From Tessaracoccus palaemonis (GTDB lineage Bacteria; Actinomycetota; Actinomycetes; Propionibacteriales; Propionibacteriaceae), in NCBI RefSeq assembly GCF_019316905.1, contig NZ_CP079216.1:1426001-1490000 (forward strand): a DNA stretch of 64,000 nt. Direction: 5' to 3'. This document shows, piece after piece, positions 9,652 to 61,807 of this stretch. The notes beneath the pieces were generated by a model, which had not been told where the DNA came from, ran no database searches, and was given only the letters and a program-made list of their open reading frames with translations. Each line of letters starts with the position of its first letter. Within the stretch, counting starts at the first letter, position 1. The translations under genes were made by a program, and so were the position numbers.

Positions 9652-11657
9652 TCCGCGGTCACATGCAGGACGTGTGCGGGACGACCGGGGTAGAGGCGGA
9701 CGAATGCCTCCTCACCCCAGGTGTAGCGCTCCTGGTTCAGCTCGTCGAAGACGGCCACCTGACGTGCACCGGGAAGCCCCAGTGCGGCGAAGTCCAGGTT
9801 CAGGCTCGACTCGACGGTGTTGTCCGGGTCCAGCGAGCACACCACGAGCACGACGTCGTCGCCGTCCGACTTGGAGAACGCGATGACCTTGTCATGCGGG
9901 GCGTGATGGAAGTGCACGTCGCGGAGCTGCTGCAGCGCCGGGTGGGCCTCCCGGAGGCGGTTCAGCGTCCCCATCAGCACGTTGAGGTTCGGCTCGGCGT
10001 CGTAGTCGCGCGGCCGGTACTCGTATTTCTCGGAGTTGAGGTACTCCTCCTTGCCGGGTGCCAGCGCTTCGTGCTCGAACAGCTCGAAGCCGGAGTAGAC
10101 GCCCCACGTCGGCGACATGGTCGCGGCGAGGATCGCGCGGATCGCGAAGGCGGCGGGATTGCCGGACTGCAGGAAGAAGGGGTTGATGTCGGGCGTGTTG
10201 ACGAAGAAGTTCGGCCTGTAATGCGAGGCCATCTCGCCGCTGAGTTCCGTCAGATACTCCGTCAGCTCCCACTTGAGGTTGCGCCAGGTGAAGTAGGTGT
10301 AGCTCTGCTGGAAGCCGACGGTGCCGAGCGCCGACATCATCTGCGGCTTCGTGAAGGCCTCCGCCAGGAAGATGATCTCCGGGTTGGTCTCGTGGACGCG
10401 CTGGAGAAGCCAGTCCCAGAACTCGACCGGCTTGGTGTGCGGGTTGTCGACGCGGAAGATGGTCACGCCACGGTCGATCCAGAACCGGACGATCCGCAGC
10501 ACTTCGTGGTAGATCCCGACGGGGTCGTTGTCGAAGTTGATGGGGTAGATGTCCTGGTACTTCTTGGGCGGGTTCTCCGCGTAGGCGATCGTGCCGTCGA
10601 GGCGCGTGGTGAACCACTCGGGGTGCTCACCGACCCAGGGGTGGTCGGGTGAGGCCTGCAGCGCGAGGTCGAGCGCCACCTCCAGCCCCAGCGAGCGTGC
10701 CTTCGAGACGAACTCGTCGAAGTCGTCGAAGTCGCCGAGATCAGGGTGGATCGCGTCGTGGCCGCCCTCGGGCGAGCCGATGGCCCACGGGGAGCCCGGG
10801 TCCTGCGGCGAGGGGGTCAGCGAGTTGTTCTTCCCCTTGCGGAAGGCGGAGCCGATCGGGTGGATCGGGGGCAGGTAGACGATGTGGAAGCCCATGGCGG
10901 CTGCCGCCTCGAGGCGCTCATGCGACGAGGCGAAGGTGCCGGAGTGCCACTGGCCGTCGTCGCCCTGCGTGGCGCCCTGCGAGCGGGGGAAGAACTCGTA
11001 CCAGGACGAGTAGAGGGCACGCCGGCGCTCGACGCGGATGGGGTAGTCGGGGGTCGGGGAGACCAGCTCGCGAGGTCCGAAGCGCGCCATCGCGCGTCGG
11101 ATGGGCGCTGAGGTGATCAGCTCGAGCAGCTCGCTCACGTCGGCCTCGGGCGTGACGGACTCGGCCGTGCCGCGCAGCAGGTGGGCGGCGCCGGGGGCCC
11201 GCAGCGTCTCGGCCTGCGCCGCGGCGCGCTCGAGCAGGTCGCGCCCCTCCATGCAGACGAGGTCGACGTCCACGGCGGCGGGGAGCTTCTTTGTCGCGTT
11301 GTACGTCCAGGTGCCCCAGGGGTCGCTCCAGCCCTCGACGCGGTAGGTCCAGTCGCCCTCGGCGGCCATCCGGACATGGGCCTGCCAGACGTCGAGGCCG
11401 AGGGGCTCCACCTGGACCATGTCGATGCGGCGCTGAGTGCCGCCGGGGGCCGTCAGGATGACCGACGCGTTGACAGCGTCGTGCCCCTCGCGGAAGACAT
11501 GGGCCTGGATGAGAAGACGCTCGTGCACGACCGCCTTGACCGGGTACGCGCCGCCCTGCAGCACAGGGCTGACACCGGTGACGGGAATGCGCCCGAGGCC
11601 GCCCTCGGTACGGATGATTCGCTGGCGTGCGGCGCGGGCCGGAAACTCGTCTGTCAC
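9648..11657 (-). CDS. glgE: alpha-1,4-glucan:maltose-1-phosphate maltosyltransferase
   Basis: 669 residues, the full GlgE length. It extends alpha-1,4-glucans by transferring maltosyl from alpha-maltose-1-phosphate. An N-terminal beta-domain precedes helical segment S and the GH13 barrel, with SSWYEFFPRSQG, PPIHPIGSAFRKGKNN, the nucleophile in IFRVDNPHTKPVEFWDW, the acid/base in IIFLAEAFTKP and NTPDINPFFLQ. The start at GTG 11657 is preferred over 11675 because it lies 7 bases after a TAGGCT -10 element and has no Shine-Dalgarno. It heads the operon glgE-mak-glgB-Nudix. Confidence 0.95.
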   Translation of the reverse strand: MTDEFPARAARQRIIRTEGGLGRIPVTGVSPVLQGGAYPVKAVVHERLLIQAHVFREGHDAVNASVILTAPGGTQRRIDMVQVEPLGLDVWQAHVRMAAEGDWTYRVEGWSDPWGTWTYNATKKLPAAVDVDLVCMEGRDLLERAAAQAETLRAPGAAHLLRGTAESVTPEADVSELLELITSAPIRRAMARFGPRELVSPTPDYPIRVERRRALYSSWYEFFPRSQGATQGDDGQWHSGTFASSHERLEAAAAMGFHIVYLPPIHPIGSAFRKGKNNSLTPSPQDPGSPWAIGSPEGGHDAIHPDLGDFDDFDEFVSKARSLGLEVALDLALQASPDHPWVGEHPEWFTTRLDGTIAYAENPPKKYQDIYPINFDNDPVGIYHEVLRIVRFWIDRGVTIFRVDNPHTKPVEFWDWLLQRVHETNPEIIFLAEAFTKPQMMSALGTVGFQQSYTYFTWRNLKWELTEYLTELSGEMASHYRPNFFVNTPDINPFFLQSGNPAAFAIRAILAATMSPTWGVYSGFELFEHEALAPGKEEYLNSEKYEYRPRDYDAEPNLNVLMGTLNRLREAHPALQQLRDVHFHHAPHDKVIAFSKSDGDDVVLVVCSLDPDNTVESSLNLDFAALGLPGARQVAVFDELNQERYTWGEEAFVRLYPGRPAHVLHVTAE

Positions 11658-11664
11658 GCTGCAC

Positions 11665-11670
11665 AGCCTA
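11665..11670 (-). promoter_or_regulatory. -10 element of the glgE operon (leaderless start)
   Basis: TAGGCT on the minus strand, 7 bases before the GTG at 11657. It is the main reason for choosing that start. No convincing -35 is visible. Confidence 0.45.
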
Positions 11671-11725
11671 GCCAATGGACCCGCTCGTTACGCTCCGGGT
11701 CCAGACGCGTGTCTATGTGACGTGT

Positions 11726-13864
11726 TCAGCCCCTCTCGGTTCTCGCCTCCCCCTCCCAGGTCAGGAGCTGCAGCGAGCTGGTCGGCACCTCGGCGCGCAT
11801 CACCGCGACGGTGCGGCCGGGCAGCGTGAGCCTCGCACCGGCGGGCAGCAGGCCCTCGGGCAGTTCGCCGTCGCCCCCGCTGTGCCACACCACGCGGTAG
11901 CTGCGGCCCCAGGGCAGTTCCGGCAGCCGGATCCGGGCGTCGCCGGCGCCGGAGTTGAACCAGGTGAGGAACGCCTCGTGCTCGTTCGACACGTACATGC
12001 CGAGCAGTCGGCGGGATCCGTCGTGCCAGTCGATCTCGGTCATCTGGCCGCCCTTGCCGTTCATCCACGTCATGTCGACCCGGTGAAGGTTCTCGCCCTG
12101 GGGGCTGAGGATCTCGTTGTGGTAGGCGAAGTCGGTCGGCTGGAAGACGCTGTAGGCCTGGCGGATGGCGATCAGGGAACGGACCTTGTCGTGAACGCCG
12201 CGCCACTGGGGGCTGATGTTCCAGTCGACCCAGCTGATGGGCGAGTCCTGGCAGTACGCGTTGTTGTTGCCCTGCTGGGTGCGCCCGAACTCGTCGCCGG
12301 CGGTCAGCATGGGCGTGCCGATGGCGAGCAACTGCGTGGCCATGAGATTCAGCACCTGGCGGCGGCGGATCGCGTTGATCTCCTCGTCGGAGGTCTCCCC
12401 CTCCCAGCCGTGGTTCCAGGAGCGGTTGTTGTCGGTCCCGTCGCGGTTCGACTCGGCGTTGGCGAGGTTGTGTTTCACGTCGTAGCTGACAAGGTCGCGC
12501 ATCGTGAACCCGTCGTGGGCCGTGATGAAGTTGATGCTCGACTGCGGGCAGCGGCCGGGGGCGTCGAACAGGTCGGGGGAACCGGCGAGCCGGGTGGCCA
12601 GCTCCTGCACGCCGTGGATGGCGCCGCGCCAGTAGTCGCGCACCAGGTCACGGAAGCGGTCGTTCCACTCGTGCCAGCCGGCTCCCCACGCGCCGACCTG
12701 GTACCCGAACGGCCCGATGTCCCATGGCTCGGCGATGATCTTGATGTCGTCGAACGTCGGGTCGGCGGCGATGAGTCGCTTGAGGGCATGGTGGTGGTCG
12801 ACGTGGTGTTTCCTGTTGCGCACCAGCGTCGTGGCCAGGTCGAACCGGAAACCGTCGACGCCCATCTCGGTGACCCAGTACCGCATGGAGTCGAGCACCA
12901 TCGCGCGCACCATCGGCGTGGAGGTGTTGACGGAGTTCCCGCAGCCGGTGACGTCATAGTCGTCGCGCCCGTTGTCCGTGAGGCGGTAATAGGCGGCGTC
13001 GTCGATTCCGCGCATGGACAGCGTCGGTCCGTCCGAGCCGCCCTCTGCGGTGTGGTTGTAGACCACGTCGAGGATGACCTCGATGCCGGCCTCATGCAGG
13101 GCCGAGACCATCTGCTTGAACTCGGCGACCTGGCGTCCGACGGTGCCGCGCGTCGCGTAGAGCGCATGCGGAGCGAAGAAGCCGAGCGTGTTGTAACCCC
13201 AGTAGTTGCGCAGGCCCTTCTCCGCGATGAAGGGTTCCGAGACGAAGTGGTGAAGCGGCAGGAACTCGACGGCTGTGATGCCGAGGTCGACGAGGTAGTC
13301 GATCACGCTCGGGTGCCCCATGCCGAGGTAGGTGCCACGCAGCTCGTGGGGAACCTCGGGGTGCAGCTTCGTGAAGCCCCGCAGGTGGGTCTCGTAGATG
13401 ATCGTCTGGGACAGAGCCCTGCGCTGGGCCACGGGTGTCGGTGCCGGTGTGTCGGCGACGACGACCGACAGGGGCACCGAGCCCAGCGAGTCCAGCGTCG
13501 ACATGGTCCGTGGGTGCCCCGGAACGTGGTCGCGGATGGGGCCGCGGAAGTCGACGCCGCCGCTGATGGCGCGGGCATAGGGGTCGAGCAGCAGCTGGTG
13601 CGGGTTGAAGCGGTTACCTCCGCCCGGATTCCAGGTGCCGAACACCCGGTACCCGTAGAGCTGCTCCGCGCCGACGCCTGGCACCTCGACGGTCCAGACG
13701 CCGTGCTCGTCGACCTCCATCGGGACCCTGCGCTCCTGGTTGCGGGAGTCGACGAGGGCCAGCTCCACCCGGGCGGCGCGCGGCGCCCAGAGACCGAAGC
13801 GCGTTCCGGTCCCGGTGATCGTGGCGCCCAGCGCGTCGGTCGCGGGGAGCGGGGCAGGAGTCAT
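11726..13864 (-). CDS. glgX: glycogen debranching enzyme (isoamylase type)
   Basis: 712 residues. The CBM48-like N-terminus (GTRFGLWAPRAARVELALVD) is followed by a GH13 barrel with IIYETHLRGFTKLHPEVP, VILDVVYNHTAEGG, the nucleophile in GVDGFRFDLATTL, the acid/base in IIAEPWDIGPFGYQVG and FITAHDGFTMRDLV. It hydrolyses alpha-1,6 branches of glycogen. It lies upstream of glgE in the same orientation with a 68-base gap containing the glgE promoter, so it is probably a separate unit in the same alpha-glucan block. The ATG at 13864 lacks a clear ribosome-binding site; the sequence further upstream does not look coding. Confidence 0.93.
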   Translation of the reverse strand: MTPAPLPATDALGATITGTGTRFGLWAPRAARVELALVDSRNQERRVPMEVDEHGVWTVEVPGVGAEQLYGYRVFGTWNPGGGNRFNPHQLLLDPYARAISGGVDFRGPIRDHVPGHPRTMSTLDSLGSVPLSVVVADTPAPTPVAQRRALSQTIIYETHLRGFTKLHPEVPHELRGTYLGMGHPSVIDYLVDLGITAVEFLPLHHFVSEPFIAEKGLRNYWGYNTLGFFAPHALYATRGTVGRQVAEFKQMVSALHEAGIEVILDVVYNHTAEGGSDGPTLSMRGIDDAAYYRLTDNGRDDYDVTGCGNSVNTSTPMVRAMVLDSMRYWVTEMGVDGFRFDLATTLVRNRKHHVDHHHALKRLIAADPTFDDIKIIAEPWDIGPFGYQVGAWGAGWHEWNDRFRDLVRDYWRGAIHGVQELATRLAGSPDLFDAPGRCPQSSINFITAHDGFTMRDLVSYDVKHNLANAESNRDGTDNNRSWNHGWEGETSDEEINAIRRRQVLNLMATQLLAIGTPMLTAGDEFGRTQQGNNNAYCQDSPISWVDWNISPQWRGVHDKVRSLIAIRQAYSVFQPTDFAYHNEILSPQGENLHRVDMTWMNGKGGQMTEIDWHDGSRRLLGMYVSNEHEAFLTWFNSGAGDARIRLPELPWGRSYRVVWHSGGDGELPEGLLPAGARLTLPGRTVAVMRAEVPTSSLQLLTWEGEARTERG

Positions 13865-55395: not shown

Positions 55396-56127
55396 GTGGA
55401 GAAGTTGCAGTTGTTGCCCGCCGTCGACGTGCAGGGCGGCCAGGCCGTCCAGCTGGTCCAGGGAGTCGCAGGCACGCAGAAGGAGTTCGGTGACCCGCTG
55501 GCCGCGGCGCTTCGCTGGCAGGAGGGCGGCGCATCCTGGCTCCACCTGGTCGACCTCGACGCCGCCTTCGGTCGCGGCTCCAACGCCGACCTGCTCCGCG
55601 ACATCGTCGGCCACCTCGACCTCAACGTCGAACTGAGCGGAGGCATCCGCGACGACGAGACCCTCGAGCGGGCGCTGTCGACCGGCGCCCGTCGCGTCAA
55701 CATCGGCACCGCCGCGCTGGAGAACCCGCAGTGGTGCGACCGGGTGGTCGGCACCTACGGCGACCGCGTCGCCATCGGCCTCGACGTGCGCGGCGAGAAT
55801 CTCGCGGCGCGCGGCTGGACCACCGAGGGCGGCCCCTGGATGGAGACCCTCGACCGCCTGGTTGCGGCCGGCTGTGAGCGCTTCGTCGTGACCGATGTCA
55901 ACTCCGATGGCATGCTGACCGGCCCCAACACCGAGCTGCTCACCGCAGTCGCGCGGCGCAGCGGCCGCAAGGTCATCGCGTCCGGCGGCATCGCCACCCT
56001 CGACAACCTCCGCGACCTGCGCGCGCTGGTCGACGACGGCATCGAAGGGGCGATCATCGGGACCGCGCTCTACGTCGGGCGGTTCACCCTCGCCGACGCG
56101 CTGGCCGTCGCGGAGGGCGACGCGTGA
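55396..56127 (+). CDS. priA: phosphoribosyl isomerase A, HisA/PriA type
   Basis: 243 residues, a (betaalpha)8 barrel. HisA isomerises ProFAR; PriA enzymes of actinobacteria also do the TrpF reaction, and no trpF is near the trp genes here. Asp11 ([16 protein letters not shown]), [33 protein letters not shown], the RGWTTEGG loop and the second catalytic aspartate in [15 protein letters not shown] are present. Residue 19 is Gln, where M. tuberculosis PriA has Arg19 (from memory). The gene overlaps the fatty-acyl reductase gene by 4 bases. Confidence 0.9.
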
Positions 56128-58475
56128 TGTCGACCCCTCCGGCGAGCACCTTCGGGACCGTCGACGGCGTAGCGCTCCACACGCCGCCGCTGCTCGAGGG
56201 CCGCATCCGCGACCTGCTGGCCGGAAGCAAGATCGTCATGACCGGCGTCACCGGTTTCATCGGCGAGCAGATGCTCTGGACCGTGCTGAGCGAATGTCCC
56301 GACACGACCACCGGCGTCATCGTGCGGCCCAAGGGTTCCGTGACGGCCCAGCAGCGCGTCGCCTCGCTGCTGAAGAAGAAGATCTTCGCCGACCTCGTGG
56401 CCGAGGCAGGCTCGGTCGAGCAGCTGATGGCCGACCGTGTCCAGGTCATCCCGGGTGACCTGCCCGACGTGCCGGAGCTGCCGCGAGACACCGACGTGCT
56501 CGTCCACTGCGCGGGCGACGTGTCCTTCGACCCGCCCATCGACCAGGCTTTCCGGACCAACGTCCTGGGGGCGCGCTCGCTGCTGACGCGCCTGAGGGAG
56601 GCGTGCTCCGACGAGAACGGCGACCTCACGCGCATCCCGCACTACGTGCACATCTCCACCGCCTACACGGCCGGCCGGCGCCGCGGCGCCATCCCGGAGG
56701 CCGCGCACATCCACACGATCGACTACGAGGCCGAGACGCGGGCCGCGCTCGCGATGGCCGAGCACGTCGAGGCCAGGTCGCGCTCCGCCGAACAGCTCGC
56801 CGTGCTGCGCAAGGAGGCCGAGGCCGAACACCGCCAGGCCGGCTACCTCACCACCAGCGAGGACACCGAGCGCCGCCGCAAGGAGTGGGTCAAGGCCGAG
56901 CTGGTCAAGGCCGGCACCGAGCGCGCCCGCTCGCTGGGCTGGACGGACGTCTACACGTTCGCCAAGGCGCTGGGGGAGCGCGTCGTCGCCGACCTCGGAT
57001 CCGAGTTCCGCGTCTCCGTGGTGCGCCCCGCGATCGTCGAGTCCTCCCTGCGGTTCCCCTACGCCGGGTGGATCGAGGGCTTCAAGATGGCCGACCCGAT
57101 CATCCTCGCCTACGGCCGCGGCCAGCTGCCCGAGTTCCCCGCCTCGCCCGACGCCGTCATCGACATCATCCCCTGCGACTACGTCGTCAACGCGATCGTC
57201 GCAGTCTGCGCCACGCAGCCCGCGGTCGGCGAGCCCGAGTACTACCACCTGTCCTCCGGAGCCAGGAACCCGCTCACGTTCCGCGGCGTCTACGAGCAGG
57301 TGCGGCGCTACTTCTCGGAGCACCCCTACACCAGCGGCCAGGGGTCGACCCCGCTGGCGACCTGGACGTTCCCGGGGGCCGAGCCCGTCGAGAAGCTGAT
57401 GTGGGTCGCCGACAAGGGCGTGAAGGTCGGGAACAGGCTGCTGAGCTTCGCCCCGCGCGGCCGGCGGACCCGCACGTGGGCGACCGCCCTGGACTCCTCG
57501 CGCAAGCAGCTCGACTTCCTCGGCAAGTACCTCAGCCTCTACGGCGAGTACCTCCAGTCCGAGCTGCACTTCGTCGACGACTGCACGCTGGCCCTGCACC
57601 GCTCGCTGCACGCCGACGACGCCGACCGCTTCGGTTTCGACTCCGCGGACTTCAGCTGGGACCACTACCTGCAGGACGTGCACATCCCGGCGATCACCGA
57701 CCCCGTCAAGCGGCTCGAGGCGGCCCGTAAGCGGCGCAACGCCAGGTCCACGACGTACCGGGACCTGAAGCCCACCGAGCCCGGCACGGTGCTCGCGGCC
57801 TTCGACCTCGACGGCACCGTGATGGCCACCAACGTCGTCGAGACGTACCTGTGGGCTCGGCTGCCCGAACTCTCCCCGCTCCGCCGGGCCGCGGAGCTCG
57901 CCCGGGTCGCGGCGCAGCTGCCGCTCTACCTGGGCGCCGAGCGGCGCGACCGCGGCGTGTTCCTCCGCTCCATGTACCGCCGCTACGCGGGCGCCGACCT
58001 GGCCCGGTTGGAGGGCTTCGTCGACGACAGGCTGTCGCCGCTGATCCTCGACCGGATGTCGCCCGAGGCCATCCGACGGATCCGCGAGCACCGCGACGCC
58101 GGTCACACCACCATCCTGCTCACCGGCGTGATCCGCCCCCTGACGCGGCCCTTCGAGGGGCTCTTCGACACGATCGTCGCCGCGGAACTCGCGACGGACG
58201 CCGACGGGAAGTGCACCGGGTTCCTCAGCGGCCCCCCGATGGTCGGGGAGTCGCGTTCGGCGTGGCTGGCCCATTACGCGCAGCTGCACGGCATCGACCT
58301 GGCGAAGAGCTACGCCTACGCCGACAGCCACGTGGACTACCCGATGCTCCATGCGGTGGGCAACCCGGTCGCGGTCAGTCCCGACATCCCGCTCATGCGG
58401 GAGGCCAAACGCAAGGGCTGGTCGATCGTCGAATGGCCAGAGATGTCGCCGCTGCCGCGGCTGAAGATGTCGTGA
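56124..58475 (+). CDS. fatty acyl-CoA reductase fused to a HAD-IB phosphatase
   Basis: 783 residues. Residues ~35-400 are a male-sterility/thioester-reductase SDR domain: NAD(P)-binding [12 protein letters not shown] (40-47), STAYTAG and the catalytic Tyr277-x3-Lys281 (VYTFAK). It should reduce an acyl thioester to aldehyde or alcohol. About 420-540 is a sterile-like C-terminal region. Residues ~555-770 are a HAD domain: [12 protein letters not shown] (Asp561, Asp563), [26 protein letters not shown]. The pairing suggests reduction plus removal of a phosphate or pyrophosphate group. GTG at 56124 overlaps the hisA stop with GGAGG upstream. Confidence 0.85.
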
Positions 58476-58491
58476 ACGGAAAGGACGACTG

Positions 58492-60012
58492 ATGTCACGC
58501 CCAGGATTCGTGCTGGAGGTCGACGCCAAGACCCCGCCGCTCATGACGATGTCGGGGGCGCAGCTGCGCCTCGAACGGCTCGGCGTCGGGACGCGGGTGG
58601 TCTACGGGCCCGACGCCGACCGCTCAACCGACCCGGTCGGCCTGATCGACGCCGCGCTCCAGGCCCCGCTGGGGGCCGATCCGCTGGCCGCGCAACTGAG
58701 TCCCGCGACCAGGCTCACACTCGTGCTGCTCGACTCGGACGCCCCGCTGCCGCGGCCGTACTTCGACCCGAGGCGGACCCTCGCCGAGCGGGTGCTGGAA
58801 CAGGCCGCGCGCGCCGGGGTTGATGACGTCGAGATCGTGGTCGCCAGCGGGCTGAGGCAGCGCTGGTCCGGCGCCCAGGTCACCCGGGTGCTCGGCGACC
58901 GCGTCGCCACCTCCTTCCTCCCCGACGACCTGATCAGCAGCCACGACGTGACGGCGGAGACGCTTGTCACCATCGGCGACATCGACGGGCACCCGGTCAG
59001 CGTCAACGCGCGCGTCGCGGACTCCGACCTGCTGGTCGTCATCGGCCTGCGCGCCGACCACACACACAGCTGCCCGCTCGCCGAGGGCATCACGGATCTC
59101 GCGACCGTCAAGCGGCTCGGCTCCGCCGAGGGGGAGCCCGAGTTCGGCCGCCAGGTCTGCGAGCTCATCGCCGGCCAGATCCCGGTCTTCTCCCTGGTCG
59201 CCGTCCTCGGCCAGCCGCTGCTCAGCCACTCGCTGCGGTTCGCGTCGCGGCGCGAGTGGGAGTGGGGGCTCGCCGACCGGCTCGCCTTCGCCGGCGCCCG
59301 CCAGACGGTCGCGGCGCTGCCCCGCCAGGGGGCCCAGCTCCTGCACGGCACCCCGCGCGCGGACTACGCCGTCATCGACGTCATCGGCGGCGCGCACACC
59401 GCGGTGATGGAGAACGCCCGCCAGGTGTGGCGGGCCGCCAACGGCGTGGAGGTCCCCGGCCCTGCCGACGTGCTGGTCACCCCCGTGTGGGGCGCCGCGA
59501 TCGACGAGTCCGATCCCATCGGCAACCCGCTGGCCGCCGCCCGACATGCGCTTGTCACCCAGGCCGGATCGAACCTCGGCACCCCGTTCGTGCGCGAGGG
59601 CGGCGTGCTCATCGCCCAGCATCCGCTGCGGCACCGGTTCTCGAACCGGCGGCACAGCGCCGCGGCCGACTTCTTTGCGACCGTGCTGCCCCAGACGACC
59701 GACCCGGACGAGATCGCCGCGCGCTTCGAGCCCGCCGCCATCGACGACGAGTGGTATCTCGATCTGTACCGCAAGCGCTTCGCTCCGCACCCGCTGCGGG
59801 TGTTCCAGGACTGGTACGCCATCGCGCGCGCCACCGCCCCTCTTGCCGACGTGATCTGGGTCGGGGCCGACCGGCGCAGCGCCGCCGTGCTCGGGCACCG
59901 GGCCGCGAGCACCGCGGCCGACGCGCTGGAGATCGCGTCCGGGTCCGTGGGATTCAGCCCGTCCATCGCCATGCTCCGCGGCGTCGGGCTGGTCGTCGGG
60001 GACGTGAAGTGA
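58492..60012 (+). CDS. LarA-like (lactate racemase/DUF2088 fold) protein, altered active site
   Basis: 506 residues. The N-terminal part fits the LarA N-domain (LTLVLLDSDAPLPRPYFDPR, like D-x-x-R-P-x-P), and VEIVVASGLRQRWSGAQVT stands where LarA has G-x-H-R-P with a catalytic histidine; here it is Arg. The GG-x-K-x-x-x-P-G cofactor-lysine motif is not apparent (VIGLRADHTHSCPLAEGITD instead). The C-terminal domain has VIDVIGGAHTAVMENARQVW and VLVTPVWGAAIDESDP. I therefore do not call a racemase. GGAAAGG precedes the ATG. It sits between the reductase and the PlsC-like gene. Confidence 0.7.
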   Translation: MSRPGFVLEVDAKTPPLMTMSGAQLRLERLGVGTRVVYGPDADRSTDPVGLIDAALQAPLGADPLAAQLSPATRLTLVLLDSDAPLPRPYFDPRRTLAERVLEQAARAGVDDVEIVVASGLRQRWSGAQVTRVLGDRVATSFLPDDLISSHDVTAETLVTIGDIDGHPVSVNARVADSDLLVVIGLRADHTHSCPLAEGITDLATVKRLGSAEGEPEFGRQVCELIAGQIPVFSLVAVLGQPLLSHSLRFASRREWEWGLADRLAFAGARQTVAALPRQGAQLLHGTPRADYAVIDVIGGAHTAVMENARQVWRAANGVEVPGPADVLVTPVWGAAIDESDPIGNPLAAARHALVTQAGSNLGTPFVREGGVLIAQHPLRHRFSNRRHSAAADFFATVLPQTTDPDEIAARFEPAAIDDEWYLDLYRKRFAPHPLRVFQDWYAIARATAPLADVIWVGADRRSAAVLGHRAASTAADALEIASGSVGFSPSIAMLRGVGLVVGDVK

Positions 60013-60800
60013 GCAGGGATCTGCCCAGCTGGGCCCAGCGGCGCAGTACCCGGCCGCGCCCCCGGCTCACCCTCCCGGCCGACCTGCTGGCCGCGGCCCG
60101 CCAGTTGATCCTCCGGCAGCGGCCCGCGGGCGCTCCCGCGCGGACCCGCCTCTCGCGGGAGATGTCGCCGCGCGCCGAGTTGATCGGGCGGCATCTCCTG
60201 CTGCGGGTCCTGAGCCTGCGTTTCGACATCGAGTTCGTCGGGTCGGGGAACCTGGACGGGCTGCGTCAGCCCTTCGTGTTCGGCGCCAACGAGCAGGGGG
60301 CGATGGACTACCACCTGTTCAGGCTCTCGCTGCCCAAGCGTCTCCGCCCCACGATGATCGCCCCCTCGCGGGCCCTCGCCCGGGGGCGCAACGTCGTGGT
60401 TTTCACCGACGACCCGCAGGCGGGCCGCCTGGTGGGGGAGTTCTCGCCGGTGGCGGCCGGACTCGCGAACCAGCACAACGTCGCGATCGTGCCGATCGGC
60501 CTGGTCGGCACGTTCAAACTCAACGATCTGATCAAGCTGCCGGTGTCCACGAGGCCGAAGGTCTCCATCCGCATCGGTGCTCCCATCTATGTGCGGGGGC
60601 GGCGCATCTCGCAGGCGACCGCGGAACTTCAGGGCACCGTCGAGCAGCTCGTGCACGAGGGTGACCTCAGCTGGTGGGACGTGGAGAAGCGGCGCGTCGG
60701 CTCCAGCGGAGCCCCGACGCCCGAGCCGATTCCGCGCTGGCGCAGGCTCTGGGATCAGGCGGCCCCCGCCGAGCAGGACGCCCGGCGGATCTGGTCGTGA
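60009..60800 (+). CDS. PlsC-like acyltransferase-family protein, degenerate motifs
   Basis: 263 residues. A basic N-terminal ~75 residues precede a 1-acylglycerol-3-phosphate acyltransferase-like fold. The HX4D motif reads NEQGAMD, so the catalytic histidine is Glu although the Asp remains; the FPEGTRS motif reads FTDDPQA. Later strands (NVAIVPIGLVGTFKLNDL, VSIRIGAPIYV) fit the family well. It may bind lipid without transferring acyl groups, or use different chemistry. GTG start overlaps the LarA-like stop (GTGA), so the three genes from 56124 form one unit. Confidence 0.75.
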   Translation: MSRDLPSWAQRRSTRPRPRLTLPADLLAAARQLILRQRPAGAPARTRLSREMSPRAELIGRHLLLRVLSLRFDIEFVGSGNLDGLRQPFVFGANEQGAMDYHLFRLSLPKRLRPTMIAPSRALARGRNVVVFTDDPQAGRLVGEFSPVAAGLANQHNVAIVPIGLVGTFKLNDLIKLPVSTRPKVSIRIGAPIYVRGRRISQATAELQGTVEQLVHEGDLSWWDVEKRRVGSSGAPTPEPIPRWRRLWDQAAPAEQDARRIWS

Positions 60801-60844: not shown

Positions 60845-61807
60845 ATGGAGCCCTATGTCGAGCCGCATCTCACGTGGCGACTCCTCGAACCCTCCGACCT
60901 CGGCGAGTTGGAGGCCTTCGGTGGCCAGCTCGACGCTCTGGACAACTCGGTGCTCTCGGCCATGGGCAAGGAGATCCCGACCTCCACGGACACGATGGTC
61001 CCCGAGCTGACCATCGGCGGGTGGGACGCGTACCGCTCCCTGTCGGCCTACGGCGCCGCCTACCGCGACCCCTCCGGAGGGCGGGGGCTGCGACTGTTCC
61101 TGCTCGGCGGGGTGCACCCGGTGTACCGGCATCTCGGCATCGGCGGGAAGATCCTGCAGTGGCAGGTCAGCCAGGCGGCCACGTGGCGCGACGCCAACCA
61201 CCCGGGGGAGCCTCTGTGGCTGGGCTGCTACTTCGAGCTGGGCCGACCCGGGCTGGACAGGATCGCCGGTCGACTCGGCTTCGCCCCGGAGCGCTACTAC
61301 TACGACCTCGTGCGCGACCTCGACACGCTGCCCCGGGAGCGCGTGACGCCGGCCGGGGTGCGTATCGAACCGTTCTCCCCCCAGCACAGCGAGGAGGTCC
61401 GCGTGCTGCACAACGAGGCCTTCTCCTCCATCGGTGGCGGGGAGGTCGCCGCCGCCGACTGGGCCGCGCGCATCGCCGACGACGACTTTCGTGCCGAGTG
61501 GAGCTTTCTCGCCTTCGACGAGCACGACGCACTCATCGGCTACGAGATGAGCTCTGCAGACGTCAACGAGGAGACCGGCGCCCCGGCCGGCTGGACCGAG
61601 AGATTCGGAGTGCGGCCCCGGGACCGGGGACGTGGCGTCGCGCTGAAGCTGCTCAGCGAAGCGCTGCGTGCGATGCGCGCAGACGGCTGCCGTGAGGCGG
61701 GCATCGGCATCGACACGCCCGACGGGCTGGCCCTGTCCCGCCTCGTTGCCGACCTGGGCTACACGACGCGCGACGCCGTGCAGCTCCTGAGCAGGTCACT
61801 TCCCTGA
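60845..61807 (+). CDS. tandem GNAT acetyltransferase
   Basis: 320 residues with two GNAT folds. The first (~1-150) has LFLLGGVHPVYRHLGIGGKI, the acetyl-CoA-binding motif A form (R-x2-G-x-G/A), and LDRIAGRLGFAPERYYYD. The second (~165-320) has FLAFDEHDALIGYEMS, TERFGVRPRDRGRGVALKLL and LSRLVADLGYT. This layout resembles mycothiol synthase-like and other tandem GNATs of actinobacteria; substrate unknown. It has its own leaderless-type promoter and is separate from the upstream lipid-like cluster. Confidence 0.8.
   Translation: MEPYVEPHLTWRLLEPSDLGELEAFGGQLDALDNSVLSAMGKEIPTSTDTMVPELTIGGWDAYRSLSAYGAAYRDPSGGRGLRLFLLGGVHPVYRHLGIGGKILQWQVSQAATWRDANHPGEPLWLGCYFELGRPGLDRIAGRLGFAPERYYYDLVRDLDTLPRERVTPAGVRIEPFSPQHSEEVRVLHNEAFSSIGGGEVAAADWAARIADDDFRAEWSFLAFDEHDALIGYEMSSADVNEETGAPAGWTERFGVRPRDRGRGVALKLLSEALRAMRADGCREAGIGIDTPDGLALSRLVADLGYTTRDAVQLLSRSLP

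Follow-up and report, generated by a model that had tools for sequence, protein, structure and literature searches.

Three genes behind hisA in Tessaracoccus palaemonis as a possible remodelled remnant of an actinobacterial four-gene cluster

In a 64,000-nucleotide stretch of the genome of Tessaracoccus palaemonis (henceforth the window; positions 1,426,001 to 1,490,000 of contig NZ_CP079216.1 in a single-contig genome of 3.2 Mb), three genes lie directly behind the histidine gene hisA, and they encode a fatty acyl reductase-like (FAR) protein fused to a HAD-type phosphatase domain (FAR-HAD), a LarA-like protein and a PlsC-like protein. A reading made earlier from the sequence only had proposed these genes as a candidate lipid cluster in which the LarA-like member had no obvious place, which raises the question of where this combination comes from and what it could do. 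We favour, with a probability of roughly 0.55, the view that an old actinobacterial cluster of four genes, namely FAR-HAD, a zinc dehydrogenase, a LarA homologue dependent on the nickel-pincer nucleotide (NPN) cofactor, and PlsC, was remodelled step by step and that the trio is what remains of it. According to this view FAR-HAD would still be active in the window, and the LarA-like and PlsC-like proteins would no longer catalyse their ancestral steps and would be retained as structural or regulatory partners of FAR-HAD.

Re-reading of the sequence bore out the coordinates, overlaps and gap that had been claimed for the three genes: FAR-HAD overlaps hisA by 4 bases, 16 bases separate it from the LarA-like gene, and the LarA-like gene in turn overlaps the PlsC-like gene by 4 bases (Table 1). 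The order hisA, FAR-HAD, LarA-like, PlsC-like, yebC, ruvC, ruvA was found in all 21 loci of the window genus that were fetched at length, and the named proteins closest to the window LarA-like protein come from Tessaracoccus and Arachnia. Elsewhere in Actinomycetota, across distant families, the cluster runs FAR-HAD, dehydrogenase, LarA homologue (LarAH), PlsC; outside Propionibacteriaceae a zinc-dependent medium-chain dehydrogenase lies between FAR-HAD and LarAH. The grouping exceeds chance, as the order is shared within the window genus and with distant families, and the trio is thus a real unit, as had been supposed, but its full form has a fourth gene, the zinc-dependent dehydrogenase, which Propionibacteriaceae have lost. 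The dehydrogenase is absent from all 41 Propionibacteriaceae loci, so that the window does not have the four genes side by side. A search of 12 Propionibacteriaceae genomes for an orthologue yielded none, the top matches having at most 38% identity and E values of 4.8e-22 or weaker. Among 80 named loci, which are the best 80 of at least 564 confirmed and over-represent close relatives, FAR or HAD was present in 74, the dehydrogenase in 79, PlsC in 76 and all four genes in 70; nine of the ten incomplete loci stop at a contig end, the exception being L210. By the same test all four genes were present in 18 of 26 loci from deep in the phylum. Adjacency was scored by distance limits, by which the dehydrogenase of L158, at 6.6 kb, counted as missing, and the contigs of seven of the 80 named loci also occur in the locus set fetched by handle.

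The link to hisA does not extend across the phylum. We found hisA within 4 kb of FAR in 21/21 loci of the window genus and 19/20 loci of other Propionibacteriaceae, in seven of nine loci from the other families of the order, in 13/80 named loci and in 0/26 deep-phylum loci. The cluster lies beside hisA in Kribbella and Actinopolymorpha, which like Nocardioides are named members of the order, and it lies away from hisA in loci of Nocardioides, Frankia, Actinomadura, Nitriliruptorales and Acidimicrobiales; the trio therefore does stay together away from hisA, the point on which the sequence-only reading had asked for a check, and it does so in other families with the dehydrogenase as fourth gene. 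hisA is an upstream neighbour that stands outside the conserved cluster. In several window-genus loci hisH and hisA are 1-2 kb apart, and in L060 and L061 the sole his gene seen in the stretch is hisA. The overlap with hisA invites the explanation that the adjacent his genes have their histidinol-phosphate phosphatase in the HAD domain, the remainder being a by-product of gene fusion, and the domain is weakly like the models for that enzyme (71-72 bits, where the cut-offs are 280 and 400). However, a HisN-like protein is encoded elsewhere in the genome (269 bits, just under the cut-off of 275) and most lineages have the FAR-HAD cluster at a distance from hisA, so that we do not favour this assignment and consider it very improbable.

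Across 296 genomes of the phylum, a LarAH of the cluster type was accompanied by FAR-HAD in 75 of 76 cases, and FAR-HAD by such a LarAH in 75 of 79. In this count LarAH was cut at an E value of about 1e-70, which dropped ten genomes with weaker matches; the window genome is among these ten and is one of the four FAR-HAD exceptions, its altered LarA-like protein having been matched in two weaker pieces. Twelve genomes with a related LarA group (about 36-43% identity) were set aside: no FAR-HAD was found in them at the threshold used, no FAR lies beside the LarA genes examined, and the NPN lysine and histidines are kept in the six proteins examined. When these are counted in, FAR-HAD accompanies 75 of 88. 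FAR-HAD was accepted down to an E value of 1.5e-38, which admits a few partial matches at contig ends, and the genome lists were transferred by hand between searches.

Fatty acyl-CoA reductases are defined by the NAD_binding_4 domain, a nucleotide-binding motif and YxxxK, all of which are present in the window protein. Its reductase part matches NAD_binding_4 (PF07993) at 3.9e-43, its phosphatase part matches HAD (PF12710) at 1.6e-34 and passes the HAD-IB model TIGR01490 (101 bits against a cut-off of 98.3) with the DxDGT motif present. The top sequence match in the PDB is the fatty acyl-CoA reductase 7eoz (2.6e-44, residues 28-529), and the window protein shares with such enzymes, which combine NAD_binding_4 and Sterile domains, this aligned stretch and the reductase motifs; it differs in the fusion to HAD-IB and in a Sterile domain that is partial and below the Pfam cut-off (26.7 against 35.4 bits). 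In Propionibacteriaceae loci the FAR Tyr and Lys are kept in 37/37 sequences and the Asp and Thr residues of the HAD motif (DLDGT) in 38/38, in tallies that exclude sequences shorter than three quarters of the reference length (for PlsC, 18 Propionibacteriaceae rows were left out). In-frame stops between FAR and HAD were sought in nine loci and eight had none; in the ninth, from 'Candidatus Frankia californiensis' (L168:6130-8494), FAR-HAD is broken up by stops and a frameshift, through mutation or assembly error, and the other three genes match.

PMC7583248 and PMC11770544 describe NPN binding by R75, K184 and H200 of LarA and catalysis by H108 and H174. Outside Propionibacteriaceae, each of the 115 cluster-type loci examined (108 distinct sequences) has equivalents of D72, H108, K184 and H200. 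Flanks of up to 10 kb were fetched for 164 loci, and in 17 of these, 11 from Actinomadura, they contain genes for LarB and LarC; one LarB and one LarC pass the NCBIfam cut-offs, and the LarB, LarC and TetR queries used to scan the flanks were at first named by eye and later checked. In our sample of the order, LarC was present in all 16 LarAH-bearing genomes of two families (residues were read in seven), and in a third family exactly in those two of eight genomes that have LarAH. The conserved residues, the adjacency of larB and larC and this order-level pattern together make NPN use by the intact LarAH likely. The phylum-wide correlation of LarC (66 of 76 cluster-type genomes, ten having no LarC match, against 126 of 220 others) adds little, because LarC is common for other reasons. 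The second catalytic histidine, H174, is described in PMC12611868 as lacking in LarA homologues of groups 14 and 15, and a gapped alignment with 9q2u is compatible with its absence from the cluster LarAH. In the Actinomadura loci L216-L220, L222, L223, L226 and L232, two LarB-like matches stand side by side near the cluster and adjoin LarC; the one tested scored 170 bits, just below the cut-off of 175 for LarB.

The window protein has the LarA fold and has lost the cofactor site. It matches Lar_N at 5.5e-15 (55.5 bits against a cut-off of 23.3), and the structure model, with a mean predicted local distance difference test score (pLDDT) of 93, is closest to the solved folds 9q3j and 9q3k, with template modelling (TM) scores on the query of 0.70-0.75. 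Against NF052592, the model for LarAH groups 14/15/16, a sister-cluster homologue (P0003) scored 933.5 bits and passed the cut-off of 740; the window protein shares the fold but scored 320 bits and lacks the NPN lysine and the nickel histidine. The altered active site noticed from the sequence was thus confirmed, the NPN lysine and both histidines that we tested being lost. Among 52 Propionibacteriaceae genomes the NPN lysine is kept in none, the His108 position in three, and a histidine at or beside the H200 position in four; the window has neither histidine, and the NPN-binding arginine (the R75 equivalent) is also not present. Of the NPN biosynthesis genes, those for LarC and LarE were sought in the window genome, and neither turned up (LarE reached 22 bits against a cut-off of 150); LarC is missing from 28 of 35 congeners as well. 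Since the NPN lysine is absent and neither LarC nor LarE was found, the window LarA-like protein is probably not an NPN enzyme. The single-histidine LarA-like enzymes 9q2u, 9q3j and 9q3k, for which PMC12611868 suggests a role in carbohydrate metabolism, are the closest solved relatives in sequence and fold, but they keep an NPN lysine, unlike the window protein, and the identity in the fold alignment is 18-19%. The seven window-genus genomes that kept LarC (G001, G013, G015, G028, G030, G032 and G034) may have another nickel-dependent LarA. A LarA-like protein of about 25% identity in family f49 (L154:9106-10596 and L155:9096-10379) likewise has neither the NPN lysine nor the histidines, and FAR-HAD does not lie beside it; neither genome is among the LarC-bearing ones of the phylum sample.

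HxxxxD and PEGTRS motifs define PlsC and other 1-acyl-glycerol-3-phosphate acyltransferases (AGPAT), and their residues are kept in 101/101 cluster PlsC sequences elsewhere, apart from one PEGTRS Gly that differs in one. In the window genus the site NHxSHLD is broken in 21 of 21 loci: His is replaced by Glu in 18, by Ala in one and by Gly in one, and the remaining locus keeps His and loses Asp. PEGTRS is lost in the 15 window-genus proteins aligned, with about 40 columns deleted. Neither Pfam nor NCBIfam, PF01553 included, gives a match above cut-off for the window protein, which has 25-29% identity to the intact PlsC of sister clusters; the structure model (mean pLDDT 72.5) matches the Thermotoga maritima PlsC 5kym (E 3.2e-8, TM 0.48 and 0.52). 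Intact cluster PlsC matches 5kym by sequence and resembles AGPAT models, below their cut-off, and the window protein has the same fold but differs from 5kym in lacking the catalytic His and PEGTRS. Since both His-x4-Asp and PEGTRS are missing, it is probably not an acyltransferase. PlsC in genus g25 (L106-L109) keeps NHxSHLD while the NPN lysine and the dehydrogenase are gone, which is an intermediate state.

Having lost these residues, both genes nevertheless appear to be maintained. Against the closest relative, whose LarA-like protein is 98% identical, the ratio of nonsynonymous to synonymous substitution rates (dN/dS) was 0.15 (LarA-like gene) and 0.13 (PlsC-like gene); it rose to as much as 0.42 and 0.35, respectively, when three less closely related congeners were compared, and FAR and HAD gave 0.03-0.29 in the same comparisons. 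Values below 0.43 show continued constraint on the altered genes, and both structure models retain the parent fold, so that we read the two as folded, constrained proteins that probably lack their ancestral chemistry. In the trees of FAR and of LarAH the Propionibacteriaceae form one side of a branch, next to Kribbella in the FAR tree (support 92/93). The simplest account of these sequences would be one early loss of the dehydrogenase and the cofactor in Propionibacteriaceae, after which the window genus also lost the PlsC site.

Several results weigh against the remodelled-remnant reading, and some of them fit a slow decay, in which, once the dehydrogenase and the pathway to the nickel cofactor had been lost, both the LarA-like and the PlsC-like protein would be functionless and on their way out and only FAR-HAD would matter. 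LarAH and PlsC evolve faster than FAR-HAD, and the LarAH tree has long branches, flagged by a warning of the program. Two of the 20 other Propionibacteriaceae loci (L117 and L121) have no room for PlsC, and 67 of 117 Propionibacteriaceae genomes have no match to intact LarAH, about ten more having a weak match only. We nevertheless regard decay as unlikely: dN/dS is well below 1 in all four comparisons, a LarA-like match is present in 35 of 35 congeners, the LarA fold is modelled at high confidence, and the change of the PlsC His to Glu in 18 of the 21 window-genus loci is not random. The same recurrent Glu, the constraint on both genes and conserved C-terminal LarA-like residues would also fit a gain by each of the two proteins of a new activity that needs no cofactor and acts on what FAR-HAD makes; this we think still less probable than decay, as neither protein was shown to have a newly conserved group of acid, base or metal residues, and as the stretch where the LarA-like protein once had its NPN site varies within the window genus.

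The remaining points against the remodelled-remnant reading concern how uniform the cluster and its motifs are. The set is not invariant, because the full-length deep-phylum locus L156 has no dehydrogenase and no PlsC was detected in the five deep-phylum loci of family f21, one of which, L145, has about 2 kb between the dehydrogenase and LarAH (10442-12461), room for another gene. The R75 position, which alignment places at residue 85 of P0003 (its R96, considered at one time as the equivalent, was dropped), is occupied by Leu, Ile or Cys in every one of the 115 cluster-type loci, and R75 thus does not separate the window-type from the intact LarAH. Elsewhere, 28 of 102 full-cluster sequences have Glu in place of the second Asp of the HAD motif, so that phosphatase activity in the full cluster is not assured. 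PlsC His and Asp are intact in five of the 20 other Propionibacteriaceae loci (four of genus g25, plus L124), which means that PlsC loss is not general in the family; three of the 20 stop at the end of a contig or close to it, and the remainder have no motif readable by pattern. A family-wide loss of the PlsC motif was therefore rejected on this recount, and the loss is confined to the window genus. The narrowed PlsC claim and the results on R75 and on the second HAD Asp leave the balance between the readings unchanged.

What the full cluster makes can be proposed from its enzyme families, which point to lipid chemistry, as the sequence-only reading had held. The FAR domain would reduce an acyl thioester to an aldehyde or alcohol, PlsC would attach an acyl chain, the HAD domain would remove phosphate, and the dehydrogenase and the NPN enzyme would transfer hydride at a polyol or 2-hydroxy-acid moiety of that lipid; the loss of LarA-like and PlsC-like catalysis in the window would then leave a simpler product. 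A lipid product is likely by analogy, and that this rests on family resemblance also counts against the remodelled-remnant reading. Nothing seen points to an ether bond, among the products suggested earlier, no search for ether-forming enzymes having been made. A non-lipid substrate, with FAR reducing a small carboxylic thioester and PlsC acylating a small metabolite, would suit the dehydrogenase, which resembles inosose, idonate, threonine and sorbitol dehydrogenases (all below family cut-offs) and hence polyol and amino-acid enzymes, and would suit the small hydroxy acids on which LarA enzymes act according to PMC7583248 and PMC11770544. We give it little credence, since FAR matches a solved fatty acyl-CoA reductase along residues 28-529 and carries a partial Sterile domain, and since PlsC resembles the AGPAT models. 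The long-chain diol pathway of Thermoleophilum and Thermomicrobium was a further candidate, for which the literature searched gave no gene-level link.

More tentatively, and at somewhat short of even odds, the full cluster could be an ancient NPN-dependent lipid pathway that has escaped description, from which Propionibacteriaceae would have dropped the cofactor while keeping the enzyme as a non-catalytic subunit of FAR-HAD, the PlsC of the window genus having followed. In such a pathway a LarA-type enzyme without the second catalytic histidine would perform a hydride reaction other than racemisation. PMC7583248 allows that homologues lacking some catalytic residues might perform another hydride-mediated reaction, which fits the linked dehydrogenase without proving the point.

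Each of the protein families is already known; of the combination of four genes with an NPN enzyme we found no description in the literature searched, although the supplementary gene-context table of PMC7583248, which was outside that search, may list some neighbours. Frankia LarAH14, which was tested in PMC7583248 and is reported there to have no activity on the substrates tried, is probably a member of the cluster because Frankia loci carry the same cluster, an assignment made from gene context. The same paper describes LarA group 16 as lacking NPN-binding and catalytic residues. AGPAT-HAD fusions beside WS/DGAT genes in Actinomycetota, reported in PMC10351704, likewise bring PlsC-type and HAD-type domains together in a lipid gene cluster, but in the present cluster HAD is fused to FAR. 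For LarA groups that lack an assigned substrate, the one tested from Frankia (PMC7583248) included, the tight genomic link to FAR-HAD, dehydrogenase and PlsC offers a concrete lead, namely the lipids of cultivable Kribbella or Nocardioides. Propionibacteriaceae provide the natural comparison, with the cofactor site lost, in one genus the acyltransferase site as well, and the reductase kept.

Table 1. Features of the hisA-adjacent trio, in window coordinates
Feature	Position	Strand	Basis
hisA/priA, upstream neighbour	55396..56127	+	Pfam His_biosynth 2.5e-64
FAR-HAD, 783 aa: FAR-like extended short-chain dehydrogenase/reductase fused to HAD-IB phosphatase domain	56124..58475	+	PF07993, PF12710, TIGR01490, 7eoz
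NAD(P)-binding reductase domain; TGxTGF and YxxxK intact	56241..57197	+	domain match, motif tallies
HAD-IB domain; DLDGT and ADSxxD intact	57792..58385	+	TIGR01490, motif tallies
LarA-like protein, 506 aa; LarA fold; NPN lysine and both tested histidines lost	58492..60012	+	Lar_N, NF052592, structure model
Stretch aligned to GGxKS (NPN lysine) and HHN (nickel histidine) of intact homologues; shortened and replaced	59050..59157	+	alignment
PlsC-like protein, 263 aa; no catalytic His, no PEGTRS	60009..60800	+	alignment, motif tallies, fold match 5kym
NEQGAMD where the intact PlsC proteins of the cluster have NHxSHLD	60288..60308	+	alignment, motif tallies

Two further genes occur near the cluster. 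One is of TetR type, seen in 15 of 164 loci and checked in one representative. The GNAT gene between the PlsC-like gene and yebC is absent in five of the 21 window-genus loci; in the window it lies 3' of the PlsC-like gene (60845-61807), and its protein shows a likeness to mycothiol synthase at 34 bits against a cut-off of 163.

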